Shown: positions 1,747 to 30,600 of the stretch, one piece after another
Layout of the letters: each line of letters opens with the position of its first letter
Position numbering within the stretch: the first letter of the stretch is position 1
Source: Amphibalanus amphitrite
Lineage: Eukaryota > Arthropoda > Thecostraca > Balanomorpha > Balanidae
NCBI RefSeq assembly: GCF_019059575.1
Contig: NW_024881619.1
Coordinates: 620,001 to 684,000 of the forward strand
Length of the DNA stretch: 64,000 bases
Reading direction: 5' to 3'
Notes under the pieces: model-generated
Told to the model about the DNA's origin: nothing
Seen by the model: the letters and a program-made list of their open reading frames with translations, nothing else
Database searches by the model: none
Program-made: the position numbers and the translations under genes

Positions 1747-2126
1747 ATGCGTAGCTCTTCCTGCGGCTCCCGCGGTCGCTCGGGAGCGACCGCAGGGAAA
1801 CTTCGACATAAACTGCGCGCGTGAGACAAAACATTGCGGATTTCGCTCTTTGTTTCGGTTGATTTTATTATGTTGTTAAGGAATAATTCATTGCTTCATT
1901 GATTTCGGTTGATTCATTGAATTGCTTCAAAAAGGTACTAATTGAAGTAATAAAGCCATTATAAAGCAATTACGCACAAAATTTTGATCAGCATCTCCAT
2001 TCAAAACAACCGTGCCATTCTCGTCGCCGGCCGCAGCGGCCGCAGCCGCGAGGGTGTTCAACCTAACCGAAATTAGGCTCCGCCTCCCGGCCGCGGGAGC
2101 CGCGGCGGCCGCAGAGCACTTGAACA
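1657..2126. mobile_element. TIR element (470 bp) splitting the LINE between RT and RNase H
   Basis: The ends are long inverted repeats: TGTTCAAGTG then GCGGCCGCCGCGGCTCCCGC at 1657-1693, mirrored at 2088-2126 (GCGGGAGCCGCGGCGGCCGC ... CACTTGAACA). Flanks are an identical GGGCCC at 1651-1656 and 2127-2132, a 6-bp target duplication. A shorter inner hairpin (CGGTCGCTCGGGAGCGACCG) lies near 1771. No transposase is present, so this is a non-autonomous element. Removing it rejoins the RT thumb with the RNase H domain. Confidence 0.8.
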
Positions 2127-2971: not shown

Positions 2972-2974
2972 TGA

Positions 2975-3720
2975 ACAAAGGACGTAGAGGCGTTATGGGT
3001 GCTAAGTGATGATAATGAAATGTATTTTGTTTCCATATGTGCTATGGCTTCAGACAAGCTCGACACAATCCTTCATGTTATGTTGAATCCAAGAACCATG
3101 GATTAGTTATTTCTAGTTAAAAAGAGTGGATTACTACTCGAGCTCATGCACTCATGGTTTAGCAACACTTCATCCATGGTCACGTTGTATGAACACCTGT
3201 CTGAAATGTCTGAAATTGGTTGGGTATGTTATGTGTTTCTATGTCACCCCCATACTGTGAAGTGAAATCCCTAAGTATCGTGTAACCCCCATGTCAAGAC
3301 CCAAGTTTTGTGTCTTTTTTTCTTTTTTCATTCTAGATAGAACCATGCCTTCTCCCAGAGCGCCTTTTGCCCCCTTGAAGAATGAGCTGTATTGCTCTTC
3401 CTGCTTACCGAGCTGTTTGGCTATCCCCAAGTAGCTAAGACTGTAAGTAGCATTGTAGTATTCACAACTAACATTAACTTCTCTGTTCTCTCCTCGCCCA
3501 GGCCATATCCTACCAAGGCTATCTCCTAACCATCGCAATTTTTCCTCTCCCAAGTCATTCCTCATCCCTACCCGGAAACCTGCTTAGTTCCGCTTAGTAC
3601 CACAACCATACGCCAACTGCAACTCTGAAGACTACAAGAGGATATACCAACTTGGAAGTTGGACGCTTGAGCCAAGCTGCTGCGCGCCCTAACTCTTCAA
3701 CAACAACAACAACAACAACT
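2975..3720 (+). other. Presumed LINE 3' UTR ending in (CAA)n
   Basis: No coding sequence is recognised. The stretch ends at a run of CAA triplets (about 3697-3719). Short triplet tails are usual at the 3' end of I-type LINEs, so I infer that the retrotransposon ends here. Confidence 0.45.
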
Positions 3721-3900
3721 CTAGGAAGCTTTATTTCGCCATGTAGGTACATTTGAAGCTATCATAATCATTAAGTCGATATTTTTCAAGTTTAAGTTCA
3801 AGTTTCAAGTTGAGCCGGTATTTTTCAAGTTGAGGTTCTACATCTGCCCTTTGGAGTTCGGCACGTGAGTATCCTACCAAATGCTATACAAGCCATAGAG

Positions 3901-4234
3901 TGAGATGATATTTTTCGTACTCCAGCGTAGATGGGTAGCCATACGGCTTCCACGGTAGACAGTGATGACATCAGTCATCTTTTGCAAGCTCGTTAAAGAA
4001 TTTGGGCTGTACGGGGACAGCCCAGCTGTCCCCGTTTTTTTGAATTTGGGCTGAATTTGGGCTGTACGGGGACAGCCCAGCTGTCCCCGTACAGCCCAAA
4101 TTCTTTAACGAGCTTGCAAAAGATGACTGATGTCATCACTGTCTACCGTGGAAGCCGTATGGCTACCCATCTACGCTGGAGTACGAAAAATATCTCACGC
4201 TCTCAGTCCCAGCGGATAAAAACAACACCTAAGA
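3901..4234. mobile_element. Long near-perfect hairpin element with 13-bp flanking repeats
   Basis: The two halves are reverse complements: the arm from about 3901 (TGAGATGATATTTTTCGTAC...) to about 4045 is mirrored from about 4067 to 4195. The spacer contains a repeated GCTGTACGGGGACAGCCCAG motif. The same 13 bases, ACAAGCCATAGAG, flank it at 3888-3900 and 4235-4247 and look like a target-site duplication. There is no coding capacity. A transcript through it would fold into a stem of well over 100 bp. Confidence 0.65.
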
Positions 4235-4620
4235 ACAAGCCATAGAGATTTGCTTGTATTATAAGCCTATCTCAATCTTGATCCAAGATTCTTACAGATA
4301 TTGAACTACATTTCCAATTTCCATGGCTTTAGGCCTTTGCAATGTAACACATTGCAAAGGCATGGGCCAGATTGGAAAACATCCATACACATTACACTAT
4401 GCCGGATGCAGGTGCAGATGGTTTGTTGATTGTTCGGGGTTTCACCTTTACATCGGCACCCATATGTTTTGGATGCCCGTGAGACCCTCTTGGGCCGAAA
4501 TTCGGTGAAAGCGATTTTGCGCTGAAATTTCTGCATGATTTGCGCCAAACATTAGATGCCTATTTATGCCAAAATTAAACCACTTTTACATAAAACACTT
4601 GTGGATTGTGCACACATAGC

Positions 4621-5374
4621 CAGGGTTTCGGAGTCGTGGTAGTGCACTTCCGACTCAGACTCGGACTCCGGGTCTGATACAAAGGGCTATGGTGGCTGCC
4701 AAAATTCCACGTGATATGACGCACCATGTTAGGTTTACGCGCACCGGGAGATTGCTCCGGTATACCCTGGCTCCGGTTTTGTTCATGCGGTCACCATTTC
4801 TCCCACGTGGACGCAGGCGCAGCTGAATCCTGACCAGCGGCCGGCGGGGCCAGCTCGAAAACCCGCCGAGAAGCATGAGTGTGGCCGTATCTGTAAGAAT
4901 CTTGGCCGTATCCATGACCACGGGCATCGCCATCATGTTGGTCCAAGGCCCTATTGTTGGTCTGTGTTTGTGTTAGGCACTTTTTGGAGCGATAAAAGAA
5001 GAAAGTAAATATACAGTTGTCATTAAGCCTTTGACACTGGATAGAAGAAGTTATAACGCGAATTTAAAATGCTTGCCTACTAAATTTTGACGTAACTTGA
5101 AATTTGTAAGATGCATTGTTAGCTTTTCAGAACAAAAACAAGATGTGTGAAAAAATAACTTATTTGTGATCACCGGAAGCGAATTTTGCCGTGGGGCAAC
5201 TGGTTAGGTAATAACAACTGAAAAGTGATACCACGGATTTTAGACTTCAGTGAACTTTCCGGAGTCGGAGTCGAGGCAGCTGGACCGGCTCCGACTCCGA
5301 CCTCCTGGCTGCTTGCCACGACTCCGGGCGACTCCGACTCCGACTCCGACTCCAACTCCAACTCCGAAACCCTG
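4621..5374. mobile_element. hAT-like non-autonomous element with GGAGTC repeats
   Basis: It begins CAGGGTTTCGGAGT and ends ACTCCGAAACCCTG, a 14-bp inverted repeat of the CAGGG...CCCTG type typical of hAT elements. Flanking 8-mers are CACATAGC and CATCTAGC (6 of 8 match), fitting an old 8-bp target duplication. Subterminal (CGGACT/ACTCCG)n repeats sit near both ends (4640-4675 and 5258-5367). No transposase is seen. Confidence 0.65.
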
Positions 5375-6083: not shown

Positions 6084-6242
6084 GTGATGACGATGCCGAT
6101 CATGGCAGCTCATGCCAGGAACCGGTGTCGATTGAGCAATCTGACTCTGGCACTTCTGTGCTTCGTTTTCGTAACGCCGACAGCAAACGGTGATTCTCTA
6201 AAGTGGGATGTCAATGATGGAAATTGGAAAACGATAAAACTG
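6084..6242 (+). CDS. SID-1-like exon 1: start codon and signal peptide
   Basis: The exon follows an acceptor (CCCTTTTGCAG) and begins GTG ATG, so a non-coding exon must lie upstream, unlocated. ATG at 6087 starts a 52-residue exon with a basic n-region, a hydrophobic core (LTLALLCFVFV), and a likely cleavage site after TPTANG. The mature protein would start near DSLKWDVNDG. It ends in phase 0 at a GTAAGT donor. Confidence 0.6.
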
Positions 6243-9913: not shown

Positions 9914-12900
9914 AATCCCTCTTTCACTCTCTCTCTCCTCCCTTTCCTTCTCCCTCTCCCGATCGTTTCTCACTCCGGAAGCTACCCAGACGCTGCGGCG
10001 CCCGCTTTCTATCCACGTCAGACGGTACATACACATTACACGAGTACACGTGTCAGCTTCCGTTGCACGGAGCTGCAATCAGTGGTATGAATGGATTCAT
10101 TCAAAGATCACGCTCGTAATCAGAACACGGAAAATTAAGCTACAATACTACGCTGTGATTTCGGACACGGTAGTAAGTAATGTGCCTATCATATTCGTGG
10201 GAAAATGAACCTTGATATTGTGTGCAATGTGCATGATGCAGTCCATTGCATGCCGTGCGTTGGCGTGTCGTCTGTTACGTGGTTTTAGATAGGTTCTCGT
10301 CGCCCCCGCCCCTGTTCCCGCCTCCTGGGTTTCCACACCCGACGTCCCTCCGCAGAGACCCCGTGCCTCTGCAGAGCCTCCGTGCCTACGAGGAGCGCGC
10401 AGTGCCGTTGTGTGCCGGCGCGGTGGCTGGTGAGCTGGGGCCTGGGCCACCGCTCCCGCCGAGCGCGCACCGCGCACCCCCTGCCTGGTCAGCTACTGCC
10501 GGCTCAGGGGTGACCTTTATCGGCACGCGGCGGCGGCCGGCCCACGCCGCCATGTGCCGCGGCGCGCGCCGGTACCTATCCTTCAACATGGCAGTGCTCC
10601 GAATTGCGGGTGGTTGCAGCACCGGCGGAAGGCACGGGCGGAGTGCCGTGACCGCGCTGATGTCACTTCACTTACTGATTCTCTCTCAGTGTCTTCGTGA
10701 ATGAGTGGTTGCTAGCTATTCAGTTGCCAAATCTCTCGCCTAAAGTTACTCATACACTCGCCCATACATGCATAAGTGTTCGTCCTCTTTCCCTCTTATC
10801 CCTCTCTCTGCCTCCCTCCCTCCCCCCTCTCCCTCCCCTCCCCTCCCTCCCTCCCTCCCTCTCTCCCTCCCCCCTCCCCATAATTACTTTACTTATACCC
10901 TCCTTTCCCCTCCCTCCCTCCTTCCCATCGCTCTTTCAGACGGGTTACTTGTTTCTGACTGCACAGTTGCACACGTAATCAACAGTTGGGCTCGATACTT
11001 ACGGCTACGGTGTGTCGTGTATGTATACGTATACTAAGGTGACGTGTGTGATTATGAATGGGCCGGTCGGTAATATGAGCTCCCTAGTCCCTAATATATC
11101 GCAATTGATGTGCCATCCTCGACTGATGCTTCCTCCTCGGTCTAATCATATCATTAAATTTTAGCATATTGTAGAAAACTTGTTTACCGTAAAGCCTCTG
11201 AAAAGCTACATTACATACACACTCGTAAGAGTATTTTTCTGGTTTGAGGAGTTAACGAAGCCTATGCCAAGCCAATTAGCTCTCAGAGACAGAGGTAACA
11301 CATTCATATAGCACTGACTTTATTTTGATCTTTTATCGACAGTTGTTTTCTTTCTTGCTTGTATGCGCATTGTGCAATTTGCATTGTGTGTCACAAGATT
11401 CCCGGTCGCGGTCGTGCGTCTAACGTGTGTTTTCTGTCGATTGACCTCAGGAGCCTCCGAAAGGCGATCGTGACCTGACCCTGGACCTGACGGGGCTATC
11501 CACAAGGCTGGTGGACAATGTGCAATTGAAGCTGGACGGTCACACACGCGAGCCTCTGTATCCACCTCCCGCCAGGTGTGTGAGTCGTGTGTGGCTGGTG
11601 TGAGGCGGGGAGGAGAACAGTTGGGCCAGTCAGTGTGGACTGGAGAGCGAAGTTTTATCACTATATTGTTGTTTAAGTTTAAAATATTGGAGCGGTGTTG
11701 TGTTCGTTTGCCCCTTGCGCTCGTTCGGGCCCGCAATGCTCATAGCAACCCACACTATCAGACTTCTCCCATCTCGCATCGCCAGACTTTTGGGCTATCT
11801 TCGTGGGGAAACCTGGCTTCGTCCAGGCCTATAGCTCATAGTGCCCTGAGTTCGGGGATGAATGGCCTCAATTAGGCACTCGGATCATTTCTCAAGCTCT
11901 GATCTGAAGATAACTGCCCTTTGCAGCATTTGACTTAAATTGAGGCACTGTCAGCCCTTTGTACCACTTTTCGGACGCTTTGACCACGTTTTCCAACTGC
12001 TTAACCCGCGCCCTGGTGGGGAGGGGCTATTTTTTGCCCCCCTCCAGACTTTTCGATATATCTCCAGAACCGCTGCGCCGATCGTCACCAAACTTTCAGA
12101 ACCCTCCCGGACATCAATTTTACACATTGTGACCAAAATTTCCAAAGGCTATGATAGGTTGGCCGGAAATGACGTCAGAGTGACGTCATGTTCTGCCGTT
12201 TTCGACCCAAAAAAGGGTTTCGCGGGAAGAGCTGTCAGGCCTATAGCTTTGCAAATACAGAAAAATGATAAAGACATGAAAGCTGTAGAATTGACAGGCC
12301 TACAAAACTGCTATCTCGGATTTTTGAAATTTTTGGATTCTGATCCCTCAAAATCAAAAAAAATAATTCTTTTTTAAATATAATAGCCGAAAAATCATCA
12401 TCCATTCAGAATCAATATCCATTTTATGCAAAACTATCAACTTTAAAATTTGACCTTTTTGACCTGACCTTGACCTGACCTCCACCAGAAAGTGACCTAA
12501 GCCGTACCTGATGGTCTTATATACAACACCATTGAGTTGGAAATGAAAAATTGTCCATAAAACATGCATCGCACAACCTTAGTAAAGTTGGGTTCATGTG
12601 CTGACCCTTGGTGACCTGACCTGTGACCTGACCTGGTATTGTCAGTGACCTCTAATAGCAACATATGTACCAGGAAACTGACGCCCTATCGCTGATTCTC
12701 GACAAAATGCGTTTTCCTCGGTGTTATAGCGCATTCCCTAGAAGACCCGTGAACGGTGAAACATTTCATCTTTGACCTGACCTGTGACGTCATCGGTGAC
12801 CCCGAAGTCAATGAAATTTGGTTTCAATGGACAAATTGGACAGGCCATTCGAACGCCGTTTGAATTTTGCGGATCCGTCCAGTAGTTTCGAAGATATGAG

Positions 12901-15900
12901 GGGGGGGGGGACAAAAAATAGCCCCCCCCTACCAGGTCGCGGTTTCTGGTTCTCTTCTTCTTCTGGCGGGAAGGATGGTTTCTATACTTTCAGTTTTGAC
13001 CCATAAAATTTGTCACCATTTTTGTTCCACCCCTCCCATTTATCCTTTCCTCTACCTCCTAGTTCTTGGCCGCCACACTCGTCGTGATACCTTTCAAGCT
13101 GGGTCTGTCGCTCAATGGTTTTCCTCCTTTCCAGTGCTATGAAGGCTCCGGGTCTGAAGTGGACGATATGTGGCTCTGCTGGTGTGAATACTCTTGAAAT
13201 AAAGATCAACTGGAAATCAGCAGGCGACAGTAATACGGGGACAGCTGTTTCGTTACGAACTGGTTGGACGGACATCCGGTAAGTCGTTGTTCATCAGTCT
13301 CATGTCCTGAGATGATTCTGCCGCCTTTTTTTTTTTTTGTTCAGATTGGTGTTAAAATATCGAACGGATTGATAGGTGGAGAGATCTGTAAATTGTAATG
13401 CGTATATTATGTGTGTTTTTCCTGTGAAAATCATTTTTCTTGTGTGTAACTAGATTACAATCATTGTGCTTGTTCATTTGACTTTTTTAGCGCGAAATAA
13501 TTGAATAACAAGCTAGTAAACTGGATTGTTTTATGCATGTTGAAATCCGAAAAAAGAATGGGGAATATTTGTTTCTGGTCCCTAAAAAGCTGTTTCTGGC
13601 ACATAATTGCTGATCAGCCCCAAAATGCTTATTCGACCCTAATATCTGAATCTGGCACCTAATTGCTTCCACACAGCCTAAAGTTGCCAGATCGTCTAGT
13701 TGAACTCCGTATTTGCTGTTTGCTGATTCAGCACCAAAACCAAAACATCCAGCACCTATTTTATTCCACGTTTGCCTACCTAATTCGCGTAATCTTCCTG
13801 ATTTTATGTATCCTAACAAACATGAACTTTGCATTCGGTGATGTCAAGTGCCATTTTCGCCAGTGGAGATAATGATTAATGCCATTTCTAGCCAAAAGAG
13901 AATCACTAGCCAGCTATGGTGCAGCATAGCAAGACGCTCCTATACCAGCCCGCTATGTAGAGATTATTGCACCCTCAGCCATTTTAACCCTCGCCCTGGC
14001 AGGGCATTTTTCATAACACGGCCTGGCAGGGGGGGGGGGGTCGATGCGACCCCCCCCTCGCGATTGGCTCCTATGGCACCTAGAAACACCAAATTTGGTA
14101 GGTAGGTGGGCCCCCTGGAGTTCTCGCCCCTGTGCAAATTTGGTTGCTCTAGGTCGATATTTAGGGGGGTTTTGGGGGGTATAAATGTAAAAATTTCGCT
14201 AAAAACAGGTCAAAAGTTTTTCGCTTATAACTTTTGATCTAATTGAGATAAAGCAAAAAGAAAAGCACCAGCGAACTCAGCACGTCAAGGCGCGTCGAAT
14301 GATATACTTTTAGCTTGTTTAAGTGTACTTAAAGTTTTTCTTAAATTTTAAGTAAACTTTATTTAATTAGTTAAGTTCAAGTTAACCAAATTGCATCATA
14401 TCGCATATCATTCGATTCGGCTGATCACCAGGAGCACAATGATACCATTTTTTAAGCTCTAGCGTCATTATGTGCCAAGTTATTGGCAAAAACGTCATTT
14501 GACCTCAGTTGACCTCATTTGACCTGACCCATGGATAAGTACACCAAACAAAGAAGCACCAAGTGACCTGCTGTTAAGAACTGTGGTTTCAAAGCACAAA
14601 AGTGATAGAACGAAGCGGATATCTCCAGTATTTTCCGAATTTAGTATTTTCCCATAGGCTTAACATTATGACGTGATGACCTCTAACTGACCTTAGGTCA
14701 GTGACATCCAAAAAACCGGAATATATGTTATACAACTTGGTGAACTTAGCACATCCTGAAAGTTTGAAGGAAATCGCTTCAAAACTGTGAGTTGGACAGG
14801 TGCATAAAGAAAATTGAAATTTGACCATGACCTTGTACCGGTTTTTCTGACCTGGTGACCTGACCCAAGGTCACCCGGACCTGAAATTTTCAGGTCATAT
14901 GTAAAAAGGTTGCCCCATAGGCTGTACCAAATTTGGCGGCGCTGCCCGCCGCCGTTTTTACGCTATCTTCGAAAAACCTTAGGGGGGGGGGGTCGCATCG
15001 ACCCCCCCCCCCTGCCAGGGCGAGGGTTAACGTGAAAAGTTTGGATCCGTCACTTCCAGCCAGGCTCTCAGGTCATAAACTGGAGTAAAAGCAAAATGTC
15101 AACTCTGAACAGACATGCCACGCAACCGGCCCTCTTTTCAATATTATTAGCTTTCTGGCTTTCTACAATCATCGTCTGACTCCATCTCGATCAAACGCAG
15201 CGTCCGGTTTCTACAGGGGCGTTTGACTGACCAGCCACACAATAACCAAAAACAAAATCAAAGCTTCATGCACACATAAGTAAGAAACGGATGAAAAAGG
15301 CACAACCACGGCACAACTCTGCGCGGCAAACAACGGACAATGTCCCACGCAAGATCCCGCGTTTCTTCAGCGGCCTTGAACGGAATGAAAACATTACATT
15401 TCTTTTTTGGAGCTATTTGATGACGTCAAAAAATACAATACCCGTTTTAATGGTCAAAATCGAGACAATTACTCACAAAAATGTTTCCCTTTAAGCATAA
15501 CAAATAAATACTTTTAAATATTTAAATGACATTGTTTTTTCAAACAAATCAATATTATTTGCTTACTTAAACGTCATATACAATGCTGAGATCACTACGG
15601 GGCTGTCTTAGAGTGTAGCTGCACTGGCAACCTTTAGGCTAGACTCCAGGGGTCATTATACCAGAACAACATGATTCTACCAGCCAGTAGTTCATTTTTC
15701 TACTAGATTGGTGCTACGCTCAGCATTTAGGTGCCAGATTCAGAAAAAAGAGTAAGGCGTACCGATGAATAGGTGCCAGAAACAGCTAATTAAGGCCATT
15801 TTCCATGATTGGTGCTGGTATCCACCAAATAGGTGCTGAGGACCAATTTTGGGGCGAGTCAGCTTTTAGGTGCCAGAAATAGCTTTTCTGGGACGCAATT

Positions 15901-18900
15901 AAATGGCGTCCAAAAAGAATTATTGACGGTCAAATACTCTACAAATGCTTGGACTAGCAAATATTATTGTTATTTGTAAATTGTACGGGGATCAATGAGC
16001 GCTTGCAGGGAGGAATCCTTTCAATATATTTCACCCCTAACAGCATTTTTGAATAGCAGGTGGGCTATCCCCAATGTCCTCATATGCCTGCTTGATATGC
16101 TTGACTCACACCTCTTCAGGTATTGGCCACCCATCTTTGCTTTCTCACACTCTACACCCCTCACTTCCCTCATCTCCCCTCCCACTGGCCCTTCCTTCTC
16201 CCTCCGCTCGGTCCTCTGACGCCCCTGTGGGCGCGCAGCTCGAACTCCACCGCGGTGTGGAAGGTGCGCTCTGCCGACTGGCAGTACCGGCGCCTGACGT
16301 GGAGCGGCTCCGGGTCGGCCGCCGCCGTCGGTATCACCAGTCTGGACGTGCTGCCGGCCGTGGCGTGCGTGGCCCACTCGGTAAGCCGACGATGGCGGTG
16401 TGGACGGCCTGGGCCGTGCTGGGAACAGGATAGGTGCAGGGTAGATGATAGACTCTCCTCCACTGTTAGATCGCACTGCTGAAGGTGATGATGTCGTATG
16501 ATGTGAAGGTGACGAAGTCTTAGCAACTTGGGAGTTAAAAGGACCTATGGTTCGTAAATTTCTGCGAAATAGCTGATGCCATTTCGTTATCTTTTTTTTT
16601 GCAGTATCAATTCGATTGTAGATGTCATACCATTACGTTTGTTTTGTTGTGTTTTGTGTGCATTATGAAACGTCTATCGGTGCTGAAGATCGTTCGGCGA
16701 TCGATTTTTTTTTTGTAGATATGAATGGATTTTGGATGGTTAGAATGTGGAATGAAATGAATATTAAATTCTGAAATAGAAATCACACTCTTTCAGTGCC
16801 CCGATGAAGCGACGTTGTCAGCACGCTCTCCAGACTGCAAGACCTTCAATGGCACTGTATCTTTTAAACCCGACGTGAGTATATGTGCCGATGTTGTTTT
16901 CCGCCGTCACCTCTCCATTCTTGCATTTTATTGTGCTCTGTGTAGTAAGTACGTACATAAATGCTGGAGGCATGTTTTTGCACAACATTACATTTGGGAG
17001 CATCGTGTTTTTCTCATCGAGACGCCTGAACGATACGGAACTATATTCAAAACGACCTTGAAACGTCATTTTGAAAACTTGACCTCAGGTCAAGGTCATG
17101 ACCCTACCGGAAAGGGTCATGCTGCATATCAGTCGATCCGTATCGTCGAGCTGAACACATCTGACGTGTTTTCTTCGCCCCATTATGTCTCTATTAAAAG
17201 TTATAGAAAAAAACTGCTGATTACCGTCCATGACCTGAGATGACCTCAGGGGCACACAGAGGGGTCACAGGTGCATTTTTCCGATTCAGTGTGTCATGTT
17301 TAGTGTTTACCCATGAACCGGTGTTTGAGAGGGTTTTGAACATCATTTGTCCAAAAGAGGCGCATTTCAATTTTCTCTCATTGACTTATAATGGAGAGGT
17401 CGCAAAATTGATCGGATCTTAGCCCTCGCCCGTATGGGGGGGGGGGTCGAACGGACCCCCCTCGGTTTTTTTTCGCGAATAACTCGCGTAAAAAGCGGCC
17501 GATCGCGACGAAACTTTCAGTACCCTCGCGTTAATCAATTTTACACCTACCCTGAAATTTTCATGACCCTGACCCTAATGACCTTTAACCTGTGACCTAT
17601 TTTTCGAGACCATGTTTGGCCGGAATCGCGATTCGGCGTATGTCGGCTCGCATTAGCCGCGCGTTTGCAGTCTTTTCGTGGTTTTAAGCGTTCAAACATG
17701 GGATATGATGTTGCTCCCATGCATTAGGGTGGGTGTCAAGGTCACCGGAAGGTCAGGTCAGGTCACTGACCTTTGATGACCTCGGTTCACTTTTTCGAGT
17801 TTTACATGTTTCTAGGCCAGTTTTTGGAGCTGAATTCGAATTAAGCAACCATATGAACATTTACGAAGTAGTTTTGGCACCTTCGTAACATGTTACGAAG
17901 CTGTCAGAGGCGTATGCCACCTACTACGAATACTCTTACTGGTTGACCTGACCTGACCTGACCCGACCCGGCCTAAATGCATGAAGACATCATCTGTGAT
18001 CAAAACTAAGATGATATTCGTGATCAGCACCCCGAAAAACCTCATAGCAGCCACGCTTTACGACTTTCTAACAGTTTCCGATTTTCCCGACTTTTGGGTC
18101 ATTGACCTGACCTGGAAGGTCATTCGATGACCTAGGACCTTAAAATTGGGTATCATCGGCTTCCTCTCGTCACGGACAACACGCTCGTTTTTTCCGCGAA
18201 GCTCTAGCTCGATCAGGGGCGAAACGGCAAGGGGGGGTCCAACGGACCCCCCCCCCCCTTATACGTTCGCGGCTGGAAAAACACTAATACGGGCGAGGGT
18301 TAGGTCACACTTATAAAAAATCTGAGATATACGTTTTATACATATTGTTATTCTCATCAATCGCTGAAAGTTTCAAAGTGATCGTTCAGTCGGTGTAGCT
18401 ATAGCGAGCCTTTGAACTTTTGCTGAGGTATGGTCACTTGACCTGACCTTTAATGACCTGGATCTGAAAATTTTCACAACATGTGTGGAAGCGATTTATG
18501 AACAGGTGTACAAAAACGGTGGCGCTGCGCGCCGCCGCTTTTTTATAGATATTTGCGAAAACCTGGGGGAGGAGGGGGGGGGGGGCGTAAAAACGCCCAA
18601 CGTGGATTGCACTGTTCATTTGGCTTTTGTTTGACACGTGCCTCGTTTGGAGTAGTTGATTAGGGGACAAGTATCGTGACCAACCTTAAATCACAATAAA
18701 TCAAGTGTTCTCAGCCAGACCATCCTTAGTGCTGTTTTTTAACGTTTTGGCAAAAGAAGCGAAAAACCTCTGTCGGCTGTGAGTCTGTGACATGTAATAG
18801 CACTTTAGCGATTTCTAGCATCTAGTGGTATGGGTGTTTTTGCTCCTATGCGGCTAGTCAAACTGAGTCGGATGGTAAAAAAGTGTCAATTTCGATGAAT

Positions 18901-21900
18901 TTGACGCAAATGATGTTCACTCACGCTGCAAAGCCTCAAAATTTTCTACAAACTTGCTTTAAAATTAGACATTCGTTGTTGATCAACCTGCTCGGTATTT
19001 TCTTTGTTAATGCTGATGGAACGTGGGAAGTCTTCACGTGTGACTTAACATGGATTATATTTTGTTGCAGACCGAAAGCCTACCAAAATATCTGTTTGTG
19101 AAGTTAAACAGCAACAATGTGAATGGCAAGCTGATGAAGGTGGAGACGCGGCGCGGGCGGCCGGCGGAGATCGACGGCTGGCTGACGACTCTGGCCGAGA
19201 CGCGTGCACCGGCCGGCGCCTTCGGCCCGGCCAAGGTGGCTCTGCCGTCGTCACCCAGGGTGGGCGCGTCCCGCAGTCGGCCAGGCGTGTCCGGCGCCAG
19301 CGGTACGCCCGTGCGGCAGCGCGGCGCGGCAGTCGGCGCGCAACCCGCACCAGGCGGCGCCAGCAACTCAGTGTCGTCCAGTGCGGACGGCTCGAGCCAG
19401 TCCTTTTCGCTCTCCAACAGCGGTAACCCGAGTGTGAACGTCTACAACTATGTCGGCACCAACGGGGAGACGGGCCAGCCGACGGTGTCGGCACCGCAGC
19501 GGGACGTGGCTGTGACGCCGGACGCCGGCCGGGCGCCGCTCGAGGAGCGGCTGACGGGCGAGGTGTCGGAGCTGGAGCCACAGACACTGCGGTTCCACGC
19601 CGAGCCGGACCGGTTGCAGGTGAGCCGTCCACCGCCCGCCGTCCGAGCGGCCTGCCCTACCGCCGGCTGAACACGGGCGCTCCGACACTGTGTGGCGTCT
19701 CATAGATATTCAGTGTCTGATTTTGGTGTTTTAGGGCGCATTAGTAACGAGGCTATATGGCTTCAGTGTCTGTTTATGCATGCATTCATAAAATGAACTG
19801 TTCGTGATAAGTCGGTTTACCAGTTCATCGGTAGAATTGGATATTTACTAGTTTGACATGTTGCTCCAACTGAGCACCATGAATATTCCAGACATCTTTA
19901 CAGACATTTCTTAGAATGATGAGCTCTTTGGCCTTTAATCGACACAGCTCCTTGTGAAAGTGTCACATTCGCCAATGGCGGTTATATGAGAGGATATAAG
20001 ACGTCTTCTATGGGAAAATTTTCTTACTTTTAGATGGGGTTTGAATCAGTAGCAGGACTGAGCTCCACGGAGTCCGACGGCCCTGTCATTCAGTGGTCCA
20101 AACTGAAGTCTGGCTCCCTGTCAGTCAGCGACTTCAGATCTTAAAGATCGGTGGCTGGATCACTCTTACCTTGTCAGTCCTGAGAACGCTGACCAAATGC
20201 CGTGATCTAATGATCCCCTACCATGCCCATTGCCCAGTGGTCTCAGGAACTCAGTTTCGATATTGTCACGCTATGCGCTGCAGTTAATTTTGTCATTTGT
20301 TTTCCAGCTGATTAGAAAGACAGTGATATGGGTGTCCAGCTGACAGATTTTTCTGCGATGAGTCAATCCAATCTTTGAGCAGGGTTCAGATACCGTTGTT
20401 TTGATTTTCAGAGCGGGCCTCTAACGTTCGAAGTAGCCAGCAACGGAACGGTGTACGCCCTCCTTATGGTGACGCCAGAGGCGAAACTTATTCGCATCAC
20501 ATCTCCCAAGTAAGTAACTCTATTTTCTAGACTTCAGCTGTAATTGGTACTGCTCCTCTTCCTTGTTCTCTTGGCCCCTGCCTACCTACTTCTGCGTGTA
20601 CCTCCCTCCCACTCTTTTTCCTCTCCTGTTTCTGTCCATATATAACTACATGTAACCTATCTCTGTTCTTCTACTTCTCTTTTTCTCCTCTCGTCCATTT
20701 CTCTGTCACTCATTTCTTGTTCACATTTTTTGTGTAATACCGCTTGTTTATGCATGATGCTTCCCTTGTGTTCAATGCTCAAGTTCTGTACCGATCTTCT
20801 GTGAGTACTGTGCTCTGCCTCACATATGTAGACGTATCTGCATCTATCCATTCCGAACCTTGCTTCCTCTGGTTACCACCTCTTCCCCAACATAATTGCT
20901 TAGCAGTCGCAACTACGCTGACAGCAGGGAGACGAAAGAGCCGTCTTGAGCGCGCCGGATGGTTTCAAAACCCACTTGGTTATGTAGGCCCTGAGGGCTC
21001 TCGCGAAGCGCTGCGCGAAATGTGTTTGTCGTGACGGTGGTTATTTGAATGAATAAACATTCTTGGTCTAATAAGTCGATGCCTTATCTCTGCTCGCTCC
21101 TGGTCGTGCCCGGAATTTTTTGAACGCCCCTCGTAGGTGTATTTGTGTGTCGATATCTGAAATGCTGACAACTCCGGTGCTCGCGCCAGCGGTGGCCGCG
21201 AGCACGTGCAGCTGTGCCCCAGCCAGCTGCGCGGGCAGTGGCTGGATGTGACGGTGTCCACCTCCTCTCGGCGGCCTGTGGGTTTCAGCGGCCGGCTGTA
21301 CCAGCCCGACACCGAGCTAAGGTCAGCCGGGTGGGGACGGCGGGGGGATAGGGGAGGCGGGGGGGGCGTGAGGGCTGGGCACACGTGGCGTATAGCGGGG
21401 TACTGACTGTTAAAAGTGAAAGATCAGCGAGCTGAACTAGCGATCCTTTACTCTAATGAGGTCAGTCTAGGGTCTCTGTGTGTGAGATGTCTAGTCTGAG
21501 GTGGGCACAGCGGGGTCACTGGACGATTAGTTGATGGGTAGATGGATGAAGGAAGCGACACGAAATATATCAATAGTCGGGGTCAGTTATATTAAGTTAA
21601 GGTCATATTTTAAACAGTACAGATGCTTACTTTAAGACGTGACATGCTGCGTTGAAGTAATGTATATGCTGCCAGAACAGCCTTTTTGTAGAATGCACTT
21701 TGAGTCCTCGACTCCTCAGTTTGTATTAATTTGTATTAATTGTATTAATTACATGTGTATCAACACGTTTGGTACTCACTGCGGCGTACTGTGTACGCAG
21801 TCTGGACGAGCCCAGGCAGGTAGAGCTGGCCCGGAACCAGTCGAGCGTGCGTGAGCTGACCTTTCCCGACTACGAGACACCGGTGGGGCTGCAGGTCAAT

Positions 21901-24900
21901 GCCCCACCCGACACCTGTATGCGCGCCTCCATCTTCCAGAAGATGGTGAGTGGCCGCTGCACGCGAACTGGGGAGGGTGAGGACGTGCTCATGAGATGCC
22001 CGAGTGTCGGACAGGCGTTTGTATTGCAATTAAATGTAGCATGTTTCTATAAGTAAAGTAGTAAATGAGCTCGCATTGACTATGCCTCAGTTCTTTCTGT
22101 ACGAGTAGTCAACAGCTGTTGGGACGTCTGTATCTGTGAATCTGGCTGGCTATTATGAAACATATCCGACTGTTGGCAGTGTTTTTCACCGACAGTCCTT
22201 ACCTGCTCATGAAAATGCACATTGGTATGCCTTGATGACAATCCGCCATCGGGAATGCTATTGTAACCGCTGCGCTATGAACGGGACTGCGGGCAGCATC
22301 GTTGTGACGGCAGCGACTTGTTGTTGTAAGTTCTGACTGCTACGGGGCTACGTCGTAACTATGTCGACTGTGGACGTTACTATGGACTATGTCGACAGCG
22401 CCATGTTGTAAGTTTTGACTGCTACGGGACTATAACAGTGTGCTAACTGTGGGCAGTGTCAGGCGCTGGCGGGCCGTCTCAAGGACGCCGTCAGCCACAA
22501 GTACCTCAGCAGTGGCGACTACCTGCCAGTAGCGGTGAGTTTGAGGCGTTATGCTACGGTCGGTGAGCTCGGCTGGGCTGGGAGGGCTCACCAGACCTCT
22601 TGCCGTTATTATTGTTAACTAATATACGGTATATACGGTAGAATATACGGTATACACTTCCTAACTCATGTGTGTGGTGACAGTGATTATGCATTATTGC
22701 TGAAAATAGAGTATATATCCCTCTTGGTAGTGTGTGTAGAGCCGGCCAATCGTCCCTCTCGCCATCCCATCGTCTCTCGCTCGCATCATCTCTCATGTGT
22801 CTCTCATATCATCTTTTATATCGCTTCTCGGTCGCGTCGTCTCCCCCCCCCCCCTTCCTCTCACCGTCTCTCACACATTTCCTTCACGCCCTCCTCTGCT
22901 GGTGGCACGCTGGCGTTGCTCCCCCGCCCGGCGCTGCTCCCCCGCCGCTATGTGACCGGCGCCGTCCCCCGTCAGAATGCCTTTCACGCCGGTCGGGCGT
23001 TTCTGCGGACCGAGTGGGCCGCGCCAGAGAACTGCGGCCTGCCCGCCGCCGTCACGTCCGGAGCTGGCGGCCTGCTGCGCGCGATGCTCACCCTGGACGA
23101 GCATGAGGACAGTGATGTCTTGCCGGTGGTGCTGCTGCCTCCAGTGGCACTGGCGATCATCGTGCCGGCCATCGTCTTCTGGCTGGTGCGCTCGGTTGTG
23201 ACCAAGTAAGTTGGGGGGGGGGGGGGGCGTTTTGTAACCCTCCGGTGGTCATATCCTGGGTGGCCCGCAAGGTTGTAGACAGAGACAGGCCGGTTTGGAT
23301 CGTTTCTCATGTGATTGTTCGTGCCTCAAAGTGATGGGAGTAGTTGAAGACTTGGTCCTGTATTTTCCCTAGTTTCTTGAGCTGGTACTGATAATTCGAT
23401 GAAAGAGACGCAAAATAGCAGGTGTGTGTGCTTCATCAAGTGTACTTTATTTCCTTATACCCTGGAAGATGTACCGATTTTTCCAACCCTCAGAGAAAAA
23501 TACTACCGTACTTCTCTCCTGCACACTCCGGCCGTTCCACTGTAATTCTGACGATCCCCTGCGCCGTGTCCAGGAGGTGGCTGAGAGACTGGACCTCGGA
23601 CGGCGGCGGTGCCACCATCAGCGAGCTACCGGAGACGCCGCGCCTGCCGCGCCTCGTGCCGCGTCTGCTCGGCTCCGAGTCCGGCAAGAAGGCTCTGCCC
23701 GCGCCGGCCTCCGGCTCCAGCTCCGGCTCTGCGCCCGGCGCCGGCTCCGGCCCGGCTGCCATGTCGGTCATCTCGGAGGCCCGCTACCCGGACATCAGCT
23801 CGGAGAAGCGCCAGCTGGCGGCCGTGGTGTCGGGCCAGACGCCAAGCGGCGTCAGTGTCGGCTCGTACCCGGACCTGAGCGAGGAGCAGCGCCGCGAGGT
23901 GGCCGCCGTCGAGGCAGAGGACGAGGAGGAGGAGCGGGCAGAGCAGGGAGCCGAGAAGGAGCGACTGGCGGCACAGCTGGGCGTGGGCGGCCGGCCGGCG
24001 CCGCCGTCTGCGCCCGCGGCAGCGGAGGACGCAGAGACCAGGTCGGTGGACGGGGGGCGGCGGTAACGACTCACTGTCGCGTGCAGAATGTGTGTTGGAG
24101 GGAATGGGAAGCAGTTGATTTGTCAGGTCCCGTTTCTGTCCTTCCCTGGTGCAGGCGTGTGATCTATGGTGTAATATGTCCTACGTCCCGTGTCTCCTCT
24201 CCCCCGCTGCAGCCGTGTGATCTGTGATATGATACGGCCCGCTCTCCCCGTTCTGTTGGCGATGTGTCGCTGCTGCTGGAGGTAATGAAGCTGGCCTGTC
24301 CGTCCCGTATCTCCCCTTCCCCGTCTGACTGCTCCTCTCCCTCCCGTTGGCAGTGTGTCGCTGCTGCCGGAGTGATACCTGACCTGTCGGTCCCGTGCCT
24401 CCCCTTCCTCGCTGACTGCCCCTCCCCCGTCCAATTGGCTGCGTGTCGCTGCTGCCGGAGTGATACCTGACCTGTCCAGTGTCCGTCCCGTGCCTCCCCT
24501 TTCTCGCTGACTGCTCCTCCCCCTCCCGTTGGCAGTGTGTCGCTGCTGCTGGAGGTAATGAAGCTGGCCTGTCGGTCCCGTGCCTCCCCTTCCCCGTCTG
24601 ACTTCCCCTCCCCCTCCCGTTGGCAGTGTGTCGCTGCTGCCGGAGTGATACCTGACCTGTCGGTCCCGTGCCTCCCGTTCCTCTCTGACCCTAATCAACA
24701 AACAAACCCTTCCCCGTCTGACTTCCCCTCCCCCTCCCGTTGACAGTGTGTCGCTGCTGCCGGAGTGATACCTGACCTGTCGGTCCCGTGCCTCCCCTTC
24801 CTCGCTGACTGCCCCTCCCCCGTCCAATTGGCTGCGTGTCGCTGCTGCCGGAGTGATACCTGACCTGTCCAGTGTCCGTCCCGTGCCTCCCCTTTCTCGC

Positions 24901-27580
24901 TGACTGCTCCTCCCCCTCCCGTTGGCAGTGTGTCGCTGCTGCTCTGCCGTGCAAAGGCAAAAACTACAATGTGAGGTCAGAGTCTGACCTCACATAGAAG
25001 GTTTTGCCTTTGCACGGCAGTGCTGGAGGTAATGAAGCTGGCCTGTCGGTCCCGTGCCTCCCCTTCCCCGTCTGACTTCCCCTCCCCCTCCCGTTGGCAG
25101 TGTGTCGCTGCTGCCGGAGTGATACCTGACCTGTCGGTCCCGTGCCTCCCGTTCCTCTCTGACCTTAATCAACAAACAAACCCTTCCCCGTCTGACTTCC
25201 CCTCCCCCTCCCGTTGACAGTGTGTCGCTGCTGCCGGAGCCCACTGAGCCGGGTAGCTCGGCCGTGGTCCGCCGCTCTGGATCGGACGCCTCTGGCGCGC
25301 TGCTGGTCAGCCGCTCGCCCGGCGGCCTGGCCGGACCGCTGGCGGTCGCCCGACACGTCTCCGCGCCCACCCTGTTCGGGTTCGCAGTGGCCGTGCTCGC
25401 CACATCGACCTACTTTTCGGCCACATCTCTGAAGGTGCGCTGCCGAGCTGGGCCCGGGGTCCGAGCGGGGCCTGAGAGGAGGGTCTGGAGGGATGGGAGG
25501 ACACGTGAGATGCACGGAACTGCTGGTCTGTAGCCGTTTTTGGGCTTGTGGATAACATGACCATCGGTATTGTGGAGTCATCCATATTCTAAGCCAGTCT
25601 GTCTACATTAAAATATTGATTTATTTTGCAGTGTGGATATCGTCTAGGTAACTGTCAATGGTTTAATTATATTCGTCGGCGCGACTGGTCCGTTTCAACC
25701 GTACGATCCATTCAGTAATTCCCGTTTGTCGTGTGTTCCTCAGGCTTACATGGCTGGTGATGCGGGCGCGTGCCCCACTTCTGCCACCTACACGGTCATG
25801 GCGAGCGGGCTGCCCAGCGTGGGCGGCCTGGTCAGCCTGCTGCCGACCGCCAGCTACGCAGCCTGCATCTGGTTCCTGCGCAACTCGTGGGTCCGCCACG
25901 CCTCCGACACACAGCTGGTCAGTCAGGGGGCGACTTTAGGGGAGGAGAACTGGTGGGTAGACTTCGCCAAACTCTATATTACTACCTATTTACTCACCAC
26001 GACTGCAATACAAATTCGGGATGTTGTAGCATCTTATTCAGCTATGTTGGGGGACCGTGGCCGATATATTTACAGCCATATACTCGATTTATCATTGCCA
26101 ATAGCCCACAGCTCCTTTCTACAATATGTGGTAGCCCATCTCCGATGAGTCACAGCCACATTACCCGAATAGTAGGACTAGGTATGTCTATATTTGTATC
26201 CCCCTTCACCCATACGTCACACACTCCAACCATGCTGTATCACAGCCCCTAACCAGTAACCACCCAGTCTTCTGACAGCTGGTGGGCGGAGGGAATCGTC
26301 TGTCTGGCGCTGTTACACAGCCCTATACCACAACCAATACCCGCTATATCAAACTCCGCACCCCGATACGTCTCACAGTCCCATACCTCGCTGTATTGCA
26401 GTTCTCATTTACCCTCTGCCGTTTCAGCTGGAGCGCGGGATCGTCTGGCCGGCGCCCGGTCTGGAGTGGCTGCTGGTTGTATACGGAGCGCAGTCGGCCG
26501 TGAGCGGACTCTGCCCGGGCAACAACCCGTGCTTCACTGCCAGTGAGTTATACTGTGTGCATGACACCAACCCGTGCTTCACTGCCAGTGAGTTATTCTC
26601 TATAGCACCAGCCCCTGCTTCACCAGTTATTCCTAGCACCAGCCTCTGCTTCGTCACCAGCGAGTTATTCATGACACCAATCAGTGAGTTATCCGTGACA
26701 GTAACCAACATTGCCTCAACACCAGTGGGTTATCTTTGGCACCAGCCTTTGCCGGCCTAAACACCAGTGAGTTATCCACATTTCATAGCACTAACCCCTT
26801 TTCAACATGAGTGCTGCTTCACCAAGATTCTTACAGATATGCTTCACCACCAGTGAGTTTTCTGTAGTTTGACAGCGAGCTGGATGTATCGGCTCCCTGT
26901 CAGTTATTGACCACTCCAGCTGTGTCTGAGTGGCCCTCCTGGCGCTGCGCCGTGCCGCACCCGTCTGTGACGTCCCGCCCCGTCCCCTGCAGACACGTTT
27001 GTGGTGGCGTTTGTCGGTGTGCTGGCCGGCAGTCGGATGCCCACCGTGCGTCCGACGCTACCCCTGACGGCGTCGGTGGCCGGCTCGGCGCTGGTCTCGG
27101 CCGGCGGCTGGCTGCCCGGCCCGACCCTGGACTGTCTGGCCGCCTCAGCGGCCGCCGCCGGCCAGATCCTCGTCACCGGCTATCTGTACTGGCAGCTGCT
27201 GCTGCCCAACAATATTGGTGAGCGTGGGTCAGCCCCTGTACCGTGTACAGTCAGCTGCTCTTACCGACCGATATTGGTGAGCGCTGGTGACCCGACGCTG
27301 GCGGTTAGGAAATTGTGCCCTCAGGCCGGGTCAGTTCACCAATCATATATTCGTTGGTCAGTACGCCAGTCAGGACATGAACGCCTTAGCGACTTGATTT
27401 TGGTAGTTAGGTCTATTCCCGGGCACTCGCGGTGTATGGGTGTCACTGTCTGTCGTCGACTGGTCGTTTGTGCTCTCAGTTATGTCGATGTGCGACGTGT
27501 GTGTGCGCGCGCGACGGTGCGTGTGCGCCTGAAGATGTGTGTTTGGGATGGGCGTGTTTGACGCGTGCTCAGTTGTGCTG

Positions 27581-27624
<44 letters not shown>

Positions 27625-30600
27625 CGTTGACGTGCTATGTTTGTGACTGTTTGTGTGCTATAATGTTTGATGCTGTTTAGGGTGGATACTTTTGCCGAGA
27701 TGGGGTTGCACGGGCGCAGCAGATCCGCCGCTGCCCTAGCGGTGACCTTGACCTCCGCCGTCTGGTGCGGCCCCAAAACTAAGCTGGCGTCGAATTGGGA
27801 AACCTCGTTCTACCCCAACTCGGCACAATTCTCCACCACTGATGCTGTTTGCGTGCCGATGTGTTGCGACGCTGTTTGTGTGCCGTTTATGTGTTTGTGA
27901 CGCTGTTTGCGTGTCATTTATGTACTATGTTTGTGACTCTGTTCGTGTACCGGCCAGGCCGTCTGTCGGCTGTGGAGCGGGCCCGTCTGCTGGTGCCCCG
28001 CGAGGTGGCCGTGCTGGTCGGCTCGCAGCTCGCGACGGCCGCGCTCGGAGCGTTCGTGCTCTCGCCGGGCGGCTATCTGGCACTGACTGGACTCGCTACA
28101 CTCTCCACCACAGTGTGGATCACCAAAGCCCGCAAGGTCGGTACCGAAACCCTTCCGCGCCCACCCAGCCGGCGGTCATCGTACTGGCGACTACATACAT
28201 TACGATTAGAGTTGCAAAGTTTTCCCAAAAGGCTGCTACCGGCACCGCCCCGCCCCACAAAAATTTTCTGGGATACCGGCATGCTACCACGCCCCAAGCA
28301 AAAAAAACGCCAAATTACCGGCATACTAAAAAAACCTGCATTCTTGATTCTAGCTTACCCCTGCAAGAGATGCCACATTTTGGCAGTTTCAGTACCCCTC
28401 CCACCCAACAGCCATCCATTGTCCAACCACAAATACCAGCAGGCTGATTTTGGCTGAGTTGGCCCCACAAATACCCACAATTTTGAAACTCAATTCCAGT
28501 CTATAACTGTTAAAATATCACCTGTAATCAAAGAAGTATTGCCTACAAAAAAAAACTATTACATTCATCAAAAAGGTGAGGACAAAAAGGACTTGAATTA
28601 CTGAAATGTGTTTTTGAAGACTGGACAGTGAGCAGTAATCACATTTACTTACATTTCAAAGTTGTTCTACTTTTCCATATTCTCCTAAAATGTTGCAGGC
28701 ACCAGCCAAATGTTTAAAATATAGATGGTCAAAACATAGATTAACAAGTACAGATTAGGCCATCTTCCTAACTGAGGAAGCGAGATCAACATCTACTTTT
28801 TCCTATCCACTATGGCTTGCTGGTTCGTGAATAAGATACGAATCATGTAAAAAATGTGTTAATAACTCACTGGTCCTGAGAATAGTCACCAAATAATATG
28901 TATAGACGCCTTGCGTATGGGCCGACTGTGACGTCATCAGCCTGAGGGCTCTTTCGCAGTCAGCTGTTGGATGGCAAAAATCATCGGCCACCCAACGGCG
29001 AAGCGTGGTTCCGTTGCGTGGTTCTGTGTTAGTGCGTCTGAGTTTCGTGTGTTTTTTCGTACGTGTACCTGAGGAAGACTTTTGCGAAATATTTTGCTCT
29101 TGCTGTGGTCGATATGGATCAGTTAGATATCCAAAGGTACCAGAAGAAGTTAATATGTGACGGGGTTCGTCTTCCGGATCCCCTTAGCGTGCCTGATGGC
29201 GACTGGAAAGCCGACCTTTGTCTGCTTCCCAAAGTCACGTTTCCAGACATATATGTCTATCTCATTAACTCAGAGGGCAGCTTTACATCAGAGAACCTGA
29301 AGGCATACAAGTCTCTAGCTTCCTGGGACTTGTTCAAGTCTGGGCACGTGGGGAAGTTGGAGGTGTTCAGACCTGGGCCCAATCTGAAGTTTATCAGATG
29401 CGAAGTGCGGGCTAGCCAGAAGGCCAGTGTGAAGTATCTGACTTGGGTGCTCTGCAGCGATGATGGGACTGTGAAGGCTGCACATTGCTTGTGCAAAGCT
29501 GGCCTTGGTGAAGTGTGCAGTCATGTCGCTGGCACTTTGTTCAAGATGCAAACTGCAGTGATGATGGGCCTAACGGAAAAGAGCTGCACCAGCAAGGCCT
29601 GTGAATGGAACTGCCAATTCAAGAAGAAGGTTGAACCGAGCACAATGGCCTCAGTCAGCAATGAAGCTGGGCTCAACATGCCTCCAGCAGTGCAAAGGAA
29701 TCCGCAAGCTGACACGATCGTTCAGCAAGAGCTCATGAAATTGCTGGAGTTTCATGACTGTGCTCTGGCGTCATCTTTTCAAAGTGATGCTCTCCCAAAA
29801 AAGCAAGACGGAGAGCTGCCATATCCTCTCCACAAGGCCATGGTCACACTGAAAAGGCAAATGGAGCAGGGTAAAACTCTTTCACCAGAGTATTGCCTGC
29901 AGTTCCTGTCGAAGCTGCCGAAGATGTACCCAGATCACCTGCTAAGGAACCTAGAGGCTGCAACAGTGGCTCAGAGTCAGTCAGCAGTATGGAAAGGCCA
30001 CAGACATGGTCGGCTGACTGCCTCAGTGTTTGGTGAGGTGGTGCACCATGTGAGAGGTGGTCGCAAAAGCAGTTCGCTTGTCGACAAGGTGATCTGCCCT
30101 CCAAAACTGTTGCGCACAGAGGCTGTGCAGTGGGGCATCAGACATGAAGATGCAGCAGTGGAAGCAGCCCTCGAGACCATCAAACTCGTGCACACAGGTC
30201 TGAAGGTGAGAAGGTCAGGGCTGTGGGTATGTAGTAAAGCACCATACCTGGCAGCTTCCCCAGATGGCATCTTGTCATGCGACTGCTGTGGGGAGACTCT
30301 GTTGGAGGTGAAGTGCCCCTTCAGTGTGAGAAACGGTGTTCCCCAAGAAGCGTCCTTCTTGGACGAAAACCTCATGCTGAAGGATGACCACAAGTATATG
30401 TATCAGCTACAGGGGCAGATGATGGTGACTGGAATGCAGTGTGTGTTCTTCTGTGTGTACGTCCCAGGTCAGGAGCCACATATACTGTGCATCCAGCGGG
30501 ATGAGAGTCAGATTTATGATATGTGCCAGAAGCTGGAAAAGTTTTATGTCACAGAAGTCATGCCACATCTGGTGTCGTAGGACACTGGACAGGACCATGT

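Follow-up and report, generated by a model that had tools for sequence, protein, structure and literature searches.

The locus LOC122381639 (NCBI) of the barnacle Amphibalanus amphitrite is very likely a diverged SID-1/SIDT-type gene in which the block encoding the two-jelly-roll ectodomain has been duplicated in tandem, as judged from gene structure and sequence comparison. The predicted protein, P0001, comprises 1155 amino acids and carries two heads, head A (residues 34 to 243) and head B (residues 371 to 577); this predicted anatomy, including an exon 8 in which the two heads are fused, is given high confidence. The SID-1/SIDT (ChUP) family comprises animal proteins linked to RNA uptake and lipids. 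Excerpts of structure papers describe its ectodomain as two tandem jelly rolls, with one ectodomain per chain, and each barnacle half is the counterpart of a complete ectodomain with both domains rather than of a single jelly roll. A doubled SID-1 ectodomain was not reported among the literature matches listed, which were open-licence papers, and the two-headed architecture was not seen in the other SID-1 relatives whose sequences were compared here.

Gene model and exons

The NCBI model splices exon 1 straight to exon 4 and is without exons 2 and 3 of an earlier model of 1199 amino acids, which account for the extra length of the latter. The borders of exons 4 to 7 and 9 to 12 are AG/GT throughout, and the last ten residues of P0001 (GVSPRPLQVQ) fall outside exon 21. 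Coordinates are positions within the window, the whole 64,000-nucleotide stretch of DNA that was analyzed, on the + strand; the lettered canonical exons are those of C906, an intron-bearing SIDT gene of the same genome.

6087..6242, +, exon 1: start resembling a signal peptide, with the opening residues of head A (P0001 residues 1-52)
11451..11575, +, exon 4: head A, jelly roll 1; 125 bp, phase 0-2 (cf. canonical exon b, 131 bp, 0-2)
13135..13278, +, exon 5: head A, final part of jelly roll 1, Cys106; 144 bp, phase 2-2 (cf. exon c, 168 bp, 2-2)
16239..16380, +, exon 6: head A, jelly roll 2, Cys185; 142 bp, phase 2-0 (cf. exon d, 145 bp, 2-0)
16797..16874, +, exon 7: head A, Cys190 at start; 78 bp, phase 0-0 (cf. 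exon e, 84 bp, 0-0, also Cys-first)
19071..19619, +, exon 8: segment with the last strand of head A, then the linker and the opening strands of head B; 549 bp
20412..20509, +, exon 9: head B, jelly roll 1; 98 bp, phase 0-2
21190..21321, +, exon 10: head B, final part of jelly roll 1, Cys440; 132 bp, phase 2-2
21801..21945, +, exon 11: head B, jelly roll 2, Cys514; 145 bp, phase 2-0; gapless to canonical exon d in the hhalign-profile alignment
22457..22534, +, exon 12: head B, Cys524 at start; 78 bp (form in the NCBI protein), phase 0-0
22976..23205, +, exon 13: last part of head B (Cys569), followed by TM1
23574..24041, +, exon 14: acidic, low-complexity cytosolic linker, C-terminal to TM1
25221..25434, +, exon 15: remainder of the cytosolic linker, plus TM2
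25744..25917, +, exon 16: Cys863-containing loop and TM3; phase 0-0 (cf. exon h, 198 bp, 0-0)
26428..26542, +, exon 17: TM4 with Cys940; phase 0-1 (cf. exon i, 118 bp, 0-1)
26993..27217, +, exon 18: TM5-7; phase 1-1 (cf. exon j, 240 bp, 1-1)
27958..28136, +, exon 19: TM8-9; phase 1-0 (cf. exon k, 239 bp, 1-0)
43444..43545, +, exon 20: TM10; phase 0-0 (cf. exon l, 111 bp, 0-0)
43966..44046, +, exon 21: TM11, without the family histidines

Introns shared with a single-headed SIDT gene

Intron sharing between the predicted gene and C906 provides the decisive evidence for a doubled ectodomain. All five ectodomain introns of C906 are matched in order, phase, and place in head A, and all five are matched again in head B. 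The introns around exons 16 to 20 likewise agree in order and phase (6/6), so that the 11 introns compared comprise 5 in the ectodomain and 6 in the membrane part, with intron places offset by approximately 0 to 4 residues. C906 differs in having one head within the 53 kb examined and in containing the motifs SACYHVCP and DDHDIWH.

The first-pass annotation had proposed a SID-1-like protein with a tandemly duplicated ectodomain, partly because exons 4 to 7 and 9 to 12 share a series of phases. The series (0-2, 2-2, 2-0, 0-0) is indeed the same in both runs, and the lengths are similar (125/144/142/78 versus 98/132/145/78 bp). When the lengths of exons 1 and 4 to 19 were put in random order 20,000 times, two nonoverlapping four-exon runs with identical phases and lengths no less close arose in 2 of the orders. 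The phase argument by itself is weak, because a repeat of phases alone arose in 2,629 of the 20,000 orders and the series appears a third time in exons 13 to 16. As an architecture, the proposal is supported by the five C906 introns found in each head, by the profile significance of head B, and by the fusion in exon 8.

Similar exon lengths in the halves, together with the two tandem jelly rolls described in excerpts of the structure papers, would also suit a reading in which the halves are JR1 and JR2 of one ordinary SID-1 ectodomain split by an insert. This is highly improbable, since each half aligns to JR1 and JR2 together, has five introns that in C906 span both jelly rolls, and has cysteines at the JR1-JR2 pair positions.

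The fused exon 8

A single open frame in exon 8 encodes the end of copy A, a linker, and the start of copy B, bearing out the earlier reading of this exon. The linker spans 127 residues rich in Ala, Ser, Gly, and Pro and is probably disordered, and a structure model places strands at the start of head B, in the part encoded by exon 8. At its acceptor exon 8 corresponds to C906 exon f, and at its donor to C906 exon a. In a second copy of the gene in the genome (C433), exon 8 is in frame and keeps both borders, with in-frame length changes and a linker of different length. The proposed origin is a tandem duplication, in a SID-1/SIDT-type gene, of the exon block for a complete ectodomain (canonical exons a to f), in which the terminal exon of copy A would have merged with the initial exon of copy B to give exon 8, with the linker in its middle.

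Two adjacent genes, or a fragment and a gene, could instead have been misjoined by gene prediction; the model is a prediction, and exons 2 and 3 of the earlier model are absent from that of NCBI. We consider such an error quite improbable, given that one open frame runs from the last part of head A into the first part of head B and that the acceptor and donor resembling those of exons f and a are both kept in C433 through in-frame length changes. Within the limits of gene prediction, the upstream ectodomain is tied to the rest of the gene by the same open frame, by the exon 8 fusion, and by the introns in common with C906.

Selection on the two copies

In both copies, borders are intact and the frame is open in all 19 of the exons checked, and exon 1 is 100% identical in C433. 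The dN/dS ratio between the copies is 0.38 for head A, 0.24 for head B, 0.18 for the membrane part, and 0.30 overall. One intron of the LOC122381639 copy contains approximately 14.7 kb that is missing from the C433 copy. This extra intron content and the absence of every zinc-site histidine could be taken as signs of a decaying pseudogene, in which relaxed constraint would account for the histidine loss, the insertions, and the poor similarity to the family. The 19 intact exons and a dN/dS ratio below 0.4 in each head, although the signal in head A alone is modest (p 0.04), make decay improbable.

Relationship of the heads to SIDT ectodomains

Neither P0001 nor any of its three pieces matched PF13965 (Pfam, SID-1 transmembrane family) above its cut-off, for which a SIDT2 control scored 934.7 bits. 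An hhalign profile of vertebrate and C. elegans rows gave no match for any piece; once barnacle rows were added, head B became significant and head A did not. This profile included 3 of the best 120 SIDT2 proteins listed, from a protein search whose best 120 of 716 matches were all SIDT2-like and amniote by the names shown. Head B matched with a P value of 7.5e-5 and a probability of 62%, its residues 1 to 207 corresponding to family columns 30 to 270 with the four family cysteines in register. Head A matched more weakly, aligning to both the JR1 and JR2 parts with three of the four ectodomain cysteines, mostly in register. The view that each half belongs to the SID-1 family was upheld by profile comparison for head B and fell short of significance for head A.

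Local alignments to SIDT2 gave z scores of 1.8 to 3.9 for head A and -0.2 to 0.6 for head B; against a vertebrate SIDT profile, the scores were 2.57 for head A, 3.31 for head B, and 3.59 for the C. elegans SID-1 ectodomain, which is about as near to the profile as the two heads are. In exon-by-exon matrices against SIDT2, the diagonal ranked 6th of 720 permutations for head A and 8th of 720 for head B. When a 52-residue SIDT segment was compared without gaps along P0001, head A (exon 6) came first of 1104 windows, a score reached by 10 of 300 shuffles, and the head B site ranked fourth of the distinct sites, behind two noncorresponding ones. When cysteines were masked before alignment, 14 of 32 were placed within 4 residues of a family cysteine, the others lying further off or in gaps.

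Between the heads themselves, pairwise alignment was not significant, direct MAFFT alignment of A and B gave a different register, and the diagonal of the exon-by-exon matrix ranked 268th of 720 permutations. The putative copies of the exon block no longer align significantly to each other yet keep all five introns, and comparison of gene structure with a single-copy relative can therefore expose domain duplications that sequence searches miss.

In structure models, the first domain of head B has eight strands, and human SIDT1 filled its top five VIA rows. SIDT was present in the VIA listings for both head models and absent for both from the 50 best Foldseek matches listed. The AF2 alignments for both heads contained 3 of the best 120 SIDT2 proteins listed, chosen as lizard and bird, so the SIDT resemblance of the models is partly built in. 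The models support the first domain of head B only.

Membrane part and zinc site

A hydropathy cut found nine membrane helices from TM1 onward in P0001, plus one stretch within head A, compared with 10 helices in SIDT2 and 11 in C. elegans SID-1; the two helices missed in P0001 were placed by alignment. Similarity of the membrane part to SIDT2 reached a z score of 2.3 with full shuffles and 1.1 to 1.4 with block shuffles, and there was no signal against C. elegans SID-1. In MAFFT runs, the first membrane-part disulfide partner was matched by Cys863 every time (4 of 4) and the second by Cys940 once (1 of 4); the third had no aligned cysteine, and none was found in the loop of the fourth.

P0001 has no histidine C-terminal to residue 905, so TM4 and TM11 cannot supply the histidines of the S-H-D-H-H zinc site, and the metal-binding enzyme site of the family seems to have been lost. 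Because this site (TM4, TM5, and TM11) is absent, the predicted protein is not assignable to the CREST metal hydrolases. According to excerpts of published work, human SIDT1 and SIDT2 possess the site and have reported lipid hydrolase activity. The barnacle protein resembles these PF13965 proteins in the order of signal peptide, two-jelly-roll ectodomain, TM1, long cytosolic linker, and further membrane helices, in the four ectodomain cysteines (head B), and, in some alignments, in the first membrane-part disulfide cysteines; it differs in having two ectodomains and in lacking the zinc-site histidines and the second membrane-part cysteine pair. C. elegans SID-1 has a single ectodomain and the zinc site and binds dsRNA, between the two domains of its ectodomain according to the excerpt available.

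Possible roles of the two heads

Canonical SID-1 family ectodomains form much of the dimer interface, according to excerpts of the structure papers. Adjoining TM1, head B would sit on the membrane domain as canonical ectodomains do and would probably retain the dimer contact. Head A, on its flexible linker, may be a second, basic head that captures ligand or multimerizes, and a dimer of the two-headed protein would display four heads. Because the membrane part is without the histidine metal site, the protein is expected to be a receptor, carrier, or partner subunit rather than a lipid hydrolase.

A ligand-capturing role for head A is tentative. It is equally possible, and no more than that, that head A is a spacer or multimerizing domain without its own ligand, the doubling altering only receptor spacing or assembly; the contribution of canonical ectodomains to the dimer interface fits this, as does the different linker length in the two copies, which implies that exact geometry is unconstrained, whereas the unlike charges of the heads (pI 9.2 for head A and 5.6 for head B) suggest specialization. 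A fuller version of the capture reading, a catalytically dead surface receptor derived in a barnacle lineage from a SID-1-type lipid hydrolase/RNA protein, whose basic distal head A would bind nucleic acid or some other polyanion outside the cell on a flexible arm and deliver it to either head B or a partner SIDT protein, is speculative and rather unlikely; were it true, one dimer would present four binding heads. A two-headed SID-1-type protein offers a testable case of functional change in the SID-1 family, and one that naturally lacks the zinc-site histidines separates the role of the head from hydrolase activity.

Other SIDT genes in the barnacle genome

A colinear twin of the C906 gene is borne by C394. 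In the C906 stretch, a candidate match to a second JR2 end was read as noncoding and dismissed. Intronless barnacle SIDT paralogs (C1631, C1087/C457, and C1981/C1526) are likewise SID-1 type, with an ectodomain of the same family; they differ from the two-headed gene in having no introns, a single ectodomain as read, and strong matches to PF13965.

Gene model and repeated exon pattern

The window spans C122:620001-684000 in the genome of the barnacle Amphibalanus amphitrite. The first-pass gene model has its counterpart in LOC122381639, for which NCBI predicts an uncharacterized protein of 1155 aa (P0001). Hand-rebuilt exons 1 and 4 to 19, joined and translated, matched P0001 exactly over residues 1-1084, and the previously described exons 2 and 3 are missing from the NCBI model. 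The lengths, phase series, and AG/GT borders claimed for exons 4 to 7 and 9 to 12 were all recovered, with exons of 125, 144, 142, and 78 bp in head A (completed by the start of exon 8) and of 98, 132, 145, and 78 bp in head B (which begins at the end of exon 8 and runs to TM1); the phases are identical. As evidence of duplication, this repeat is suggestive when lengths and phases are taken together, two four-exon runs with matching phases and equally close lengths appearing in 2 of 20,000 shuffles of exon order. Phases alone are not suggestive, because they matched in 2,629 of 20,000 shuffles and the series 0-2, 2-2, 2-0, 0-0 occurs again at exons 13 to 16. Short repeats of the GACCTGACC type abound in the introns at window positions 12450-18600, as do G or C runs. 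Upstream of the exon 15 in use, positions 24250-25220 hold tandem-like repeats of its acceptor stretch, with many decoy splice sites.

Intron positions shared with a canonical SIDT gene

Ten whole exons were mapped in the canonical barnacle SIDT gene on contig C906. Those bearing on the ectodomain are as follows.

C906 exon a: ends in phase 0
C906 exon b: 131 bp, 0-2
C906 exon c: 168 bp, 2-2
C906 exon d: 145 bp, 2-0
C906 exon e: 84 bp, 0-0; its first residue is the Cys of CP
C906 exon f: begins in phase 0

The 78-bp exon of each head opens with the same Cys as exon e, and the remaining borders of both heads lie at most about two residues from the canonical ones. In the membrane part, C906 exons h to l (198, 118, 240, 239, and 111 bp; phases 0-0, 0-1, 1-1, 1-0, and 0-0) are matched by exons 16 to 20 of the two-headed gene (174, 115, 225, 179, and 102 bp), with borders at most about four residues apart. 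Because the introns agree with those of C906 in phase and place, we take it as settled, judging from gene structure, that the two-headed gene descends from a SIDT gene and as shown that both heads derive from one ectodomain exon block. The tandemly duplicated SID-1-like ectodomain proposed in the first-pass annotation is thereby supported as architecture, each half displaying the C906 ectodomain exon order, phases, and near-equal borders. The C906 ectodomain exons are present once in the 53 kb examined, giving the canonical gene one ectodomain there, whereas LOC122381639 is predicted to have two.

Family resemblance of the protein

Searches of P0001 with the PF13965 profile and against PDB sequences gave no match, and a homolog search returned nothing beyond P0001 itself. 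By eye and alignment, the order of parts is that of SIDT2: signal peptide, beta-rich ectodomain, TM1, long cytosolic linker, and further helices. A simple hydropathy cut was passed by 9 of the 11 helices and by one stretch within head A. The disulfides of SIDT2 are C117-C207, which links the two domains, and C197-C256, inside the second domain (PMC10272179). Head B retains the four-cysteine pattern of SIDT2 in full, with exactly four cysteines spaced 74/10/45 (80/10/49 in SIDT2), whereas head A retains only the first three (spacing 79 and 5) and has its fourth elsewhere.

The protein signal was stronger with barnacle SIDT sequence as bait. Against the canonical C906 ectodomain, head B scored z 4.72 (reached by 0 of 400 shuffles), head A 3.27 (1 of 400), and a cytosolic control -1.11. 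With L001, L004, and L009, three intronless paralogs, as targets, both heads gave mixed scores (2.3, 1.03, and 3.26 for head A; 3.78, 0.96, and 1.23 for head B). The profile comparison of each half with the SID-1 family (hhalign, eight-row profile) favored head B (P 7.5e-5, probability 62%) and not head A (0.23). Against a vertebrate profile, heads A and B reached z 2.57 and 3.31, compared with 3.59 for the ectodomain of C. elegans SID-1 and 1.97 for reversed head B; this known family member is hardly nearer to the profile than the heads are. Direct comparison of head A with head B gave no detectable similarity, and therefore the duplication would be old or else the heads fast-evolving.

Exon 8 and a second genomic copy

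Exon 8 (19071-19619), one exon open throughout its length, reads, as first described, from the end of head A through a linker to the start of head B. C906 exon f corresponds to its 5' part, which encodes the final strand segment of head A, and C906 exon a to its 3' part, which encodes the opening strands of head B; in between lies a linker of 127 residues rich in Ala, Ser, Gly, and Pro. On this reading, exon 8 joins both heads into one gene rather than two, and its simplest origin would be a tandem duplication with break points within exons a and f. A further copy of the two-headed gene was located.

C433:410751-441894, minus strand: second copy of the two-headed gene

Among the 19 exons aligned, AG/GT borders are intact in exons 4 to 21, as are the start and donor of exon 1, and frame and length are unchanged save in exon 8, where in-frame indels set the two linkers apart. 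This second copy probably represents the other haplotype, because four of the five kinds of SIDT loci found are paired in this assembly. Over 1139 of 1145 codons, dN/dS between the two copies was 0.30 overall; the values by part were 0.38 (head A), 0.31 (linker), 0.24 (head B), and 0.18 (membrane part). About 14.7 kb of intron 19 (window 28207-42871) is absent from the C433 copy; this stretch contains a single-exon frame near 29.1-30.6 kb and minus-strand frames near 31.3-34.4 kb, which we take to resemble transposon proteins. Alignment to C433 also suggests fewer units there of the exon-15 acceptor repeats.

Zinc site and proposed function

The SIDT family zinc site comprises three histidines, one aspartate, and one serine in TM4, TM5, and TM11. 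The canonical C906 gene retains the motifs SACYHVCP and DDHDIWH, whereas P0001 has no histidine past residue 905, N-terminal to TM4. Judging from its sequence, P0001 is a descendant of the SID-1 family with the enzyme site lost; it is not classed as a CREST hydrolase because its last histidine precedes TM4.

Structural papers describe SIDT ectodomains as supplying much of the dimer interface, with the second jelly roll seating them on the membrane core, and C. elegans SID-1 as holding double-stranded RNA between its two domains. Head B would occupy the canonical seat on the membrane core, and head A, basic and on a flexible linker, might be a second head for reaching out or clustering, a role we regard as rather doubtful. 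Because the metal site is absent, P0001 may work as a receptor, carrier, or partner. No report of a doubled SID-1 ectodomain was found among the open-licence papers listed by the literature searches. As predicted gene anatomy, the two-headed architecture is well supported; as function, it is putative and unsupported.

SIDT genes elsewhere in the genome

The A. amphitrite genome contains several SIDT genes, comprising three intronless kinds and one intron-bearing canonical gene.

C1631: intronless kind 1
C1087 and C457: intronless kind 2, near-identical as read
C1981 and C1526: intronless kind 3, paired on score only
C906: canonical intron-bearing gene, with a colinear relative on C394

The intronless genes, of at least three kinds (L001, L004, and L009 on contigs C1631, C1981, and C1087, respectively), have long open frames and are retrogene-like. 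In L004 (open frame 1498-3756, minus strand), HDLWH is retained in the last helix; part of the zinc site may be lost here as well, because SALQSTCP replaces the family motif SACYHVCP at its position. L009 (open frame 1511-4651) encodes 1047 residues with a single ectodomain as read and, following TM1, a cytosolic linker that is very long. In the canonical gene, an intron of about 28 kb (C906:212297-240133) separates the exons encoding one jelly roll from those encoding the other.

The window also holds a neighboring frame.

48565-49236, plus strand: open frame, presumably a CDP-alcohol phosphatidyltransferase
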